Below, piece by piece: positions 27,956-29,590 of a stretch of 64,000 nucleotides of DNA. Location: positions 2,480,001 through 2,544,000 of the forward strand of contig NZ_LT992502.1 of the NCBI RefSeq assembly GCF_900324475.1. Reading direction: 5' to 3'. How positions within the stretch are numbered: position 1 is the first letter of the stretch; each line of letters opens with the position of its first letter. This stretch comes from Enterobacter bugandensis. Its GTDB lineage: Bacteria > Pseudomonadota > Gammaproteobacteria > Enterobacterales > Enterobacteriaceae. The position numbers and the translations under genes were made by a program. Under the pieces are notes generated by a model that was not told where the DNA came from, did no database searches, and saw nothing but the letters and a program-made list of their open reading frames with translations.

Positions 27956-28378
27956 TTAATCTTGATTGGTCTCTTTTTTGCGAAACGAGAGATAGCCAAA
28001 AACGCCGCTTTCGCCGTCGCTCGGATGGTTTACGCCATCCATCACCGTCACTTCAGGGAAATCAAACGGCGACACATTTTTAAAACAGGCCACATTGACA
28101 CCGTATTCATTTGGGTTAGAGCGACGCTGATGGAACGTGTAAATCCCGCAGACCGAGCAGAAGAAATGGCGCGCCGTCCCCGTGTTGAACCGGTACTCCG
28201 TCAGCTTATCCTCACCTCTGGTCACGGTGATACCCGACAGCGGTGCAGAGACCACAACCGCGCCCCGCATACGGCAAAAAGAGCAGCTGCAGCGCCGCGC
28301 GGTATTCAAGCCGTCAGTCAGTTCGACGGTAAAAGCCACCGCACCACAGTGGCACTGTGCATGACGAATGTCAGCCAT
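27956..28378 (-). CDS. GFA-family (CENP-V/GFA domain) protein
   Basis: 140 aa, beta-tent fold with zinc-ligand cysteines Cys9/Cys11 (CHCG), Cys30-Cys32-Cys35 (CSCSFC) and Cys74/Cys77 (CSVC). The family is named for glutathione-dependent formaldehyde-activating enzyme; most members have no proven activity, and spontaneous glutathione-formaldehyde adduct formation makes the name doubtful. Cytoplasmic. It lies 3 bp downstream of the small gene at 28382, so the two may be one operon. Confidence 0.85.
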   Translation of the reverse strand: MADIRHAQCHCGAVAFTVELTDGLNTARRCSCSFCRMRGAVVVSAPLSGITVTRGEDKLTEYRFNTGTARHFFCSVCGIYTFHQRRSNPNEYGVNVACFKNVSPFDFPEVTVMDGVNHPSDGESGVFGYLSFRKKETNQD

Positions 28379-28381
28379 TGG

Positions 28382-28579
28382 CTATACCCCTTTTCTTACC
28401 AGTTCGGCAGCTTTGAGAAAAACCTCATCTTCTACACCATCGCCTTTCTGCCTGCCCAGCCTGACAAGTTCGTTGACAATGCTGTCACGATCGATCGTTT
28501 TTTGCGATGAAACCAGCCCTATAACGGCGGCCCCAATCGCCAACCCCACTAATCCTGTTTGTTCGTCTTTGTTCTTCAT
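28382..28579 (-). CDS. hypothetical 65-aa protein with glycine-rich helix
   Basis: Short protein with a glycine-rich hydrophobic stretch (TGLVGLAIGAAVIGLVSSQ) followed by an amphipathic C-terminus. Single membrane-associated helix likely. The ATG at 28579 has AGGAG 7 bases upstream; the ATG two codons earlier sits too close to it. Function unknown. It lies between the VOC gene and the GFA gene on the same strand. Confidence 0.6.
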   Translation of the reverse strand: MKNKDEQTGLVGLAIGAAVIGLVSSQKTIDRDSIVNELVRLGRQKGDGVEDEVFLKAAELVRKGV

Positions 28580-28643
28580 ACTCATGCTCCTGATACAACA
28601 AACAAGCGTAGCAGGATTTTTCAGACCGTTTTCAGGCGTTTTA

Positions 28644-29072
28644 CTATTTCGCCTGGATCGCTGTTATTCCGACACGCTGGCCGTATGAGAGCTCTAAGGT
28701 ATTACCATCAGGATCGGCAAAAAAGACATAATAGCCGACGGGATCACCCAGATCTTCCGGCGCTTTCCTCAACACCCCTTCTTTAGCGGCCATCGCAGTT
28801 TTTCTGTCAATTTCTTCGCGCGTGGCGCAGGCAATCCCAAGGTGGCCAAAATGCCCCAGCGGCGTATCGGTCACGGTGTCCGCCTGCACCAGAACCAGCG
28901 CAAAAGGACGCGTATGGTCAGTTAGCCACGCCACTTTACGGGCAGTTGGAAGATCGGGCTCACGCGAATGGATGACGTCCATCCCGGCATATCGGCGATA
29001 GAAAGCAAGGCTCTTCTCCAGATCCCTGACCATAAACGCAACATGAGTGAATCCTACATCAATGTCTTTCAT
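28644..29072 (-). CDS. VOC (glyoxalase/bleomycin-resistance fold) protein, copy 1
   Basis: 142 aa, one VOC module pair: FTHVAFMVRDLEKSLAFYRR at the start, PLGHFGHLGIAC in the middle and FADPDGNTLELSYGQ at the end supply the usual His/Glu metal-site positions. Substrate unknown: glyoxalase-like, ring-cleaving or antibiotic-binding roles are all possible. The promoter just upstream carries a near-exact soxS-type SoxR operator, so induction by redox-cycling compounds is predicted. A diverged paralogue with the same promoter lies at 63497-63946, across the prophage. Confidence 0.88.
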   Translation of the reverse strand: MKDIDVGFTHVAFMVRDLEKSLAFYRRYAGMDVIHSREPDLPTARKVAWLTDHTRPFALVLVQADTVTDTPLGHFGHLGIACATREEIDRKTAMAAKEGVLRKAPEDLGDPVGYYVFFADPDGNTLELSYGQRVGITAIQAK

Positions 29073-29108
29073 TTTAAGATGTTACTCCTGTATCAACATG
29101 TCGTAGCC

Positions 29109-29140
29109 ATCTTAAAAGCTCAAGTTAACTTGAGGTCAAC
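29109..29140 (-). promoter_or_regulatory. SoxR-type promoter of VOC copy 1
   Basis: On the minus strand -35 TTGACC (29134-29139), a 19-bp spacer and -10 TAAGAT (29109-29114). The spacer contains the perfect 16-bp palindrome CTCAAGTTAACTTGAG (29119-29134), the core of the E. coli soxS SoxR site. An overlong 19-bp spacer with a dyad inside is the hallmark of MerR-family activation by DNA distortion. Confidence 0.85.
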
Positions 29141-29167
29141 GGTGAATTTGTGCGGTCCTGATGATGT

Positions 29168-29512
29168 TCATAAAAGAATAAAGGGACAGAAATGATAAAG
29201 CGCCGCCGTGGCTGAAATATTCACAACGATGCTCAGCAAAAACCAGGTTTTGAAGGGTTGCTTCTGCGTTTTATGGCGAAAGAGCTGTTGGCCCAATATG
29301 GCGCCTGGCCACCCTCCCACAGTACCAAACGTCAGTAAAGTGACCTCCGGTATCCTGCGCATCGCTTTTCGTGCCGCCGTTTTGTCGACACCATAAATCG
29401 CTATCGTCAGCATATTAATCAGCAGAAACCACATGGCAAAAGGATACGAGGAAAAAAAGCTGCCGATCGCAGCGAAGATCAGCAGAACAAAACAAAAGCG
29501 ATTTAATGTCAT
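29168..29512 (-). CDS. DUF1294 membrane protein
   Basis: 114 aa with three or four hydrophobic segments (RFCFVLLIFAAIGSFF, FAMWFLLINMLTIAIYGVDK, WFLLSIVVNISATAALYHF) and the family motif GVDKTAARKAMRRIPE...GGWPGAILGQQLFRHKTQK. Inner-membrane protein of unknown role; some relatives are fused to cold-shock domains, but not this one. The start may instead be the ATG at 29554, giving 128 aa. It is the last apparently intact host gene before the prophage scar. Confidence 0.8.
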   Translation of the reverse strand: MTLNRFCFVLLIFAAIGSFFSSYPFAMWFLLINMLTIAIYGVDKTAARKAMRRIPEVTLLTFGTVGGWPGAILGQQLFRHKTQKQPFKTWFLLSIVVNISATAALYHFCPFILL

Positions 29513-29590
29513 AGGGTCAGTCACGGAATATGTAAGCGTATGTCGGGAAAGCATTATACGCTATCTTACGCATTATCCGGTCAGGTGCTA

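Follow-up and report, generated by a model that had tools for sequence, protein, structure and literature searches.

Does SoxR of enterobacteria directly control any gene other than soxS? The question is raised by a gene of the VOC superfamily (the VOC gene) in a 64-kb stretch of the Enterobacter bugandensis genome (contig NZ_LT992502.1, positions 2,480,001 to 2,544,000; hereafter the window), for which an earlier note had proposed direct activation by SoxR. Passages of PMC4146615 and PMC4411124 describe SoxR of enterics as controlling soxS alone and everything else as being reached via SoxS, and the view of the earlier note that soxS is the only established SoxR target in these bacteria agrees with them. 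Our comparison of the locus with its relatives indicates that the VOC gene is probably a direct SoxR target, and we place the probability of this regulatory core at roughly 0.85; for genomes that have SoxR we regard direct control of the gene as very probable, slightly more so than for the core as a whole. It looks like a conserved second direct SoxR target in enterics, and we file it as a new one, unusual in coexisting with soxS.

The promoter of the VOC gene (Table 1) consists of the minus-strand elements TTGACC and TAAGAT separated by a 19-bp spacer, an arrangement that had been claimed before and was confirmed by reading the sequence. As expected of a SoxR-activated promoter, a dyad lies between the -35 and -10 elements. 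The promoter had been called near-exact to the soxS type, and 17 of the 18 bases of its SoxR box match (29118-29135). The palindrome is perfect, as described; it does not, however, lie wholly inside the spacer, as its last base overlaps the -35 hexamer. This SoxR box is positioned 63 nt upstream of the VOC start and is the sole site with up to 3 mismatches across the window, where 0.04 would be expected from dinucleotide shuffles, at least one such box being present in 4 of 100 shuffles. A consensus scan of 28550-29300 for sigma-70-like promoters with spacers of 16-18 bp came up empty, but this carries little weight because only 0.8 is expected in shuffles.

We examined 92 sequences for the box: the window, the first 43 of the 77 loci found in a contig scan, and 48 loci fetched from genome searches for VOC relatives (threshold E 1e-35; the groups overlap). 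Nine duplicates (L043, L105, L107, L108, L112, L113, L124, L125, and L128) were removed before counting, and a tree was built on the 83 distinct VOC loci; the 34 distant loci of the scan (L044-L077) were subjected to the box search only, the best match having 7 mismatches. One clade of 50 rows (bootstrap 99; Shimodaira-Hasegawa-like approximate likelihood ratio test, SH-aLRT, 99) contains all 48 box-bearing VOC genes, while none of the 33 distinct VOC loci outside it has a box with up to 5 mismatches, a 5-mismatch match at -218 in L038 having been set aside as chance and the locus counted as boxless. Box presence requires 3 label changes on the tree versus a mean of 26.8 in shuffles. Among the 48 boxes, 15 have 1 mismatch, 23 have 2, six have 3, three have 4, and one has 5; a match with up to 3 mismatches was reached by 1 of 5000 shuffled upstream regions (base shuffles, in which relatedness is not modelled).

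The position and context of the box are conserved as well. It starts 58-64 nt 5' of the start codon in 48 of the 50 clade loci, and the information per column over the 48 upstream regions is 1.60 bits in the -35 element, 1.54 in the box, and 1.14 in the -10 element, versus 0.13 in the flank and 0.31 downstream. The first five bases of the -35 element are TTGAC, TTGAT, or TTTAC in 47 of the 48 box-bearing loci, and the mean -10 score over these loci is best at 19-bp spacing. Judged by these counts, the promoter arrangement in the related loci is far beyond chance. A pattern search of four upstream regions of cyanobacterial VOC relatives found no overlong TTGAC-type promoter. Such relatives (L039-L041, about 50% identity) are located near cupredoxin-like, metal-ATPase-like, and MerR-like genes, as identified by eye.

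SoxR sites were sought genome-wide, allowing up to 3 mismatches in 15 genomes and in 20 Klebsiella-group genomes, and up to 2 in 60 Enterobacter-group genomes. Each of the 15 genomes contains a perfect box flanked by soxR-like and soxS-like frames (SoxR signature words identify the former in 14 of the 15 genomes and SoxS words the latter in 10; the others were named by eye), and one soxR/soxS pair was confirmed with the NCBIfam SoxR and SoxS models; the VOC gene accounts for 10 of the 14 imperfect sites in this set. The Enterobacter scan, which the earlier note had named as a check on its proposal, came out in favor of it: the 60 genomes contain 56 perfect sites and 16 imperfect ones, each of the latter adjoining the VOC gene, and a reversed-pattern control at the same limit of 2 mismatches matched no site in these genomes. 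All five perfect sites inspected (in G004, G005, G006, G402, and G423) lie beside soxR. Three of the 19 VOC-bearing Enterobacter-group genomes fall beyond the 2-mismatch limit, their boxes having 3-4 mismatches. The Klebsiella-group genomes all contain a perfect site, 11 of their 16 imperfect sites are at a VOC gene, and the VOC site was found in 11 of 11 VOC-bearing genomes. In VOC-bearing genomes with SoxR, the soxR-soxS region and the VOC gene are thus, judged by sequence, the two strong sites.

Several other SoxR-like sites were considered as targets and rejected. In L093 the palindrome is located just 3' of a dus-like frame (by eye), the sites in L096 and L192 are both inside frames, that in L094 is by its coordinates inside a 207-amino-acid frame, and the L191 site has 2 mismatches and a weak promoter context. 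The site in L095 (at about 2035, genome G013) has 3 mismatches and precedes an FMN-reductase-like frame (by eye), which is within chance range. G013 also contains L021, one of the VOC genes that no longer have a box.

The surroundings of the VOC gene vary. Within 2-3 kb on each side in the 50 clade loci, with clusters of antisense open reading frames (ORFs) left out, the commonest neighbor family occurs in at most 11 loci. The neighbors in Klebsiella pneumoniae are an AraJ transporter and a polyphosphate kinase 2, and those in other loci include LysR-like, GNAT-like, and desaturase-like genes (by eye). As the neighborhoods differ, conservation extends to the VOC gene along with its promoter, but not to their location. 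Plasmid-borne VOC relatives are found in 62 Pantoea and 3 Kosakonia records among 86 matching, and the position of one boxed copy (L121) coincides with that of the match in one Kosakonia plasmid. This distribution fits a box that arose once, with movement or loss thereafter. By comparison, direct control of the VOC gene by SoxR is strongly supported: the box is confined to a single clade, its 19-bp spacing is fixed, the surroundings change, and it is nearly the only site besides soxR-soxS in the scanned genomes.

In comparison to known systems, the operator is alike in 17 of 18 bases to that of the E. coli soxS promoter (E. coli box as given in a passage of PMC4411124). The soxS promoters of the 15 enterobacterial genomes likewise have a 19-bp spacer and a -35 element overlapping the first box bases, but their hexamers are TTTACC and TATACT rather than TTGACC and TAAGAT. 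They also differ in what they drive: the soxS promoter serves a second regulator, while the VOC promoter serves an effector gene and has no soxR adjoining. Direct control of effector genes, as proposed here, is found in SoxR regulons of non-enteric bacteria (P. aeruginosa PA4205-PA4208, PA2274, and PA3718; six genes of S. coelicolor; S. maltophilia mfsA), and a passage of PMC8859910 makes the general statement that SoxR action in non-enterics is direct. The SoxR box of mfsA is located between -35 and -10 elements with an unusual spacer, according to passages of PMC4146615 and PMC4411124, and none of the non-enteric targets named in those passages is a VOC gene. The hosts of those regulons lack soxS, whereas the SoxR considered here serves soxS as well. 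A passage of PMC3720812 reports no SoxRS box at K. pneumoniae yjcC. No SoxR-driven enterobacterial VOC gene appears in titles or abstracts among the literature matches listed, most subscription journals being outside the coverage of the search.

We infer that SoxR binds this operator and activates the promoter independently of SoxS. The [2Fe-2S] regulator would sit on the palindrome within the overlong 19-bp promoter and, when reduced, keep it quiet; when oxidized by redox-cycling compounds such as phenazines and quinones, it would remodel the DNA so that RNA polymerase could start. Unlike the more than 100 genes of the SoxRS regulon, the VOC gene would bypass the SoxS step, and its product would most likely act on an aromatic redox cycler, either oxygenating it or transferring a thiol to it.

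The VOC ORF matches Pfam Glyoxalase (PF00903, E 4e-14), which places it in the VOC superfamily, and its AlphaFold2 model has a predicted local distance difference test (pLDDT) score of 89.5 and a predicted template modeling (pTM) score of 0.85. Among the best 120 of 344 protein matches listed, those 99% identical to it bear the name Enterobacter bugandensis. His10, His77, and Glu127 are invariant in 82 of 82 sequences (one a copy) and form a putative metal triad. A structure search resulted in a broad tie among VOC folds that singles out no function. Glyoxalase I was rejected: the position of its fourth ligand, Glu56 in the GloA numbering, is occupied by Val60 in all 82 aligned sequences, and the GloA model scores 32.7 bits versus a cut-off of 165. 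FosA, FosB, and FosX share the fold with the VOC protein at 18-28% identity, and their His-His-Glu ligands presumably resemble its triad in number and rough position; however, a FosA-type fosfomycin transferase was rejected, as the Fos models reach at most 32.4 bits versus cut-offs of 171-300. His10, His77, and Glu127, present in 82 of 82 sequences, may also correspond to the 2-His-1-Glu facial triad of type I extradiol dioxygenases, but the curated dioxygenase models score below their cut-offs (HpaD, 26.7 bits versus 321; catechol 2,3-dioxygenase, 25.8 versus 320). We infer metal binding and, from inducer logic together with the fold, a class of substrate: the reading somewhat favored over its competitors is a metal-dependent VOC enzyme of one domain whose substrate would be an aromatic redox cycler.

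An alternative that we consider unlikely, but the strongest of those remaining, is that the VOC protein does not act on the drug and instead repairs redox-stress damage, such as a reactive aldehyde or thiol adduct. The structure search places glyoxalase I and metallothiol transferases in the same fold, and redox stress is generally understood to give rise to secondary electrophiles; against repair, the glyoxalase I ligand is replaced by the invariant Val60, and non-enteric SoxR targets are, in a passage of PMC4146615, transporters and enzymes resembling modifiers of small molecules. Somewhat less likely still is a SoxR-controlled binder that would hold a flat redox-active drug unchanged, as EhpR, the phenazine resistance protein of Enterobacter agglomerans, does with a phenazine. 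EhpR lacks catalytic residues (PMC3175449), while the putative triad is intact here, which speaks against an EhpR-type binding site without catalytic metal residues, and the two proteins are only 16-17% identical. The earlier note had left it open whether the product would sequester or modify a redox drug, and the intact putative triad favors modification.

Combining these elements, the VOC gene could be a self-contained, mobile one-gene redox-drug resistance unit that lands at unrelated sites in soxRS-bearing enterobacteria, works at once via the SoxR of its host, and encodes a new class of metal-dependent enzyme acting on phenazines or quinones; we regard this extended scenario as tentative and rather doubtful.

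A number of observations weigh against direct control by SoxR, or limit its reach. Two of the 50 clade members, L021 and L026 (P. dispersa), have lost the box; in L021 a promoter-like stretch is still present and the dyad has decayed (by eye). Four boxes (L005, L008, L104, and L121) have 4-5 mismatches, some with an altered center, and may bind SoxR poorly. The reversed-pattern control is no longer free of matches when 3 mismatches are allowed (5 of the 15 and 6 of the 20 genomes), and therefore single 3-mismatch sites mean little. The gene is patchily distributed: VOC relatives at E 1e-35, with or without a box, are found in 34 of 392 genomes of the family, in 19 of the 60 Enterobacter-group genomes, and in 11 of the 20 Klebsiella-group genomes, and a DNA (not protein) search of an E. 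coli collection found no match to the VOC locus. Three genomes (G408, G427, and G438) keep a boxed VOC gene and have no SoxR detectable at E 1e-20, so the pairing of box and SoxR is not absolute. The soxRS genes of the window's own genome are assumed.

The P. dispersa VOC gene (85% identical; L026 2600-3000 and L178) has a divergent LysR-type gene, annotated gcvA, beside it in place of the lost box; a swap of regulator at this gene is possible.

The search for SoxR at the above threshold covered 12 genomes and found none in six of them (G408, G420, G427, G438, G268, and G039), of which G268 and G039 carry box-less VOC relatives; G402, which carries the nearest VOC relative found, has SoxR. In G408, G420, G427, and G438, which belong to the 60 Enterobacter-group genomes, the soxRS region is unmatched except for short repeat-like matches. 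In G427 (C1, ~340,790-343,430) a stretch of 2.6 kb stands in place of about 9.7 kb, and synteny ends just before soxRS in G408 (C1, ~307,030). No N runs occur in the 160 kb around the expected place of soxRS in either genome, so some boxed copies seem to run without SoxR; for G420 and G438, incomplete assembly is a possible cause of its absence. SoxS was likewise absent above the cut-off from G408 and G427, the two of these four that were searched. The three SoxR-less genomes with boxed VOC genes would be accounted for if soxRS had been lost recently. Recognition of the operator by a MerR-family regulator other than SoxR, as the persistence of the box in those three genomes and the overlong-spacer mechanism common to the family might suggest, is very improbable, given that the operator agrees in sequence and spacing with that of soxS in the inspected genomes and that no such regulator was recognized by eye among the neighbor representatives (no family-library search was made).

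If the VOC gene is indeed under direct SoxR control, these enterobacteria would have retained the SoxS cascade alongside a direct effector of the kind used by SoxS-less bacteria. The genera concerned are Enterobacter, Klebsiella, Cedecea, Kosakonia, Phytobacter, Raoultella, and others, including important clinical ones, in which an uncharacterized enzyme would be switched on under redox-cycling antibiotics. This would revise the published view of SoxR acting on soxS alone in enterics, for which a 2008 survey is reportedly the source cited.

In the window, the VOC gene is followed by a 66-amino-acid ORF and a GFA-family gene, all in the same direction, and the three might be co-transcribed in Enterobacter bugandensis. 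They were rejected as a conserved operon: the genes downstream of the VOC relatives differ, and therefore the unit is taken to be the VOC gene alone. On the other side, the DUF1294 gene (29168-29554) was rejected as a linked partner, as it is in tandem rather than divergent and its family occurs in only 6 of the 50 loci. A dedicated regulator adjoining the VOC gene was also rejected, there being no constant one across loci.

Table 1. Features of the VOC locus in the window
Feature	Position	Strand	Basis
VOC gene (142 amino acids, ATG start)	28644..29072	-	ORF list
-35 element TTGACC	29139-29134	-	read from sequence
Spacer, 19 bp, the overlong length of MerR-family promoters	29133-29115	-	read from sequence
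-10 element TAAGAT	29114-29109	-	read from sequence
Perfect palindrome, 16 bp, CTCAAGTTAACTTGAG	29119-29134	none	read from sequence
SoxR box, 17/18 bases of CCTCAAGTTAACTTGAGG	29118-29135	-	pattern scan
Probable VOC ribosome-binding site, AGGAG	29085-29089	-	read from sequence
66-amino-acid ORF, no Pfam match, 3' of the VOC gene	28382-28585	-	ORF/Pfam
GFA-family gene	27956-28378	-	same direction as the VOC gene

We also sought the form TTGACCTNAAGTTAACTTGAGNT, with at most 1 mismatch, in the 392 genomes of the family. It is present in 24 of them, 12 times at a VOC gene and 12 times elsewhere, compared to 1 match for the reversed control. For the non-VOC sites, Pfam and NCBIfam models were applied to the representatives L179, L181, L183, L185, L188, and L190, and the others were assigned by likeness. 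SoxS scores over its cut-off in only one of the 12 genomes with non-VOC sites (G191). The site is located between soxR and a DoxX gene in L179, L180, L182, and L190, between soxR and the membrane-fusion gene of an efflux pump in L181, and beside soxR in L185-L187, where L185 has frames resembling membrane-fusion and RND-pump genes across from soxR; the same site is present in L184, where the genes around it were not resolved. Each of these nine loci has one site, at about 1430-2050, with TTGACC at the box. In some SoxS-less relatives, SoxR thus seems to act directly on pumps. The soxR-adjacent boxes before DoxX and efflux-pump genes in SoxS-less genomes resemble P. aeruginosa mexGHI, and we take the DoxX proteins beside soxR to be MexG-like.

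In two further loci (L188, at 1487; L189, at 2026) the site has an O-methyltransferase gene on one side and a YhfS-like gene on the other. In the last (L183, at about 2014, genome G191), it lies ahead of DoxX-like and membrane-fusion-like frames, and no soxR was seen next to it. G191 is an apparent second example of a genome combining SoxS with another direct SoxR target.
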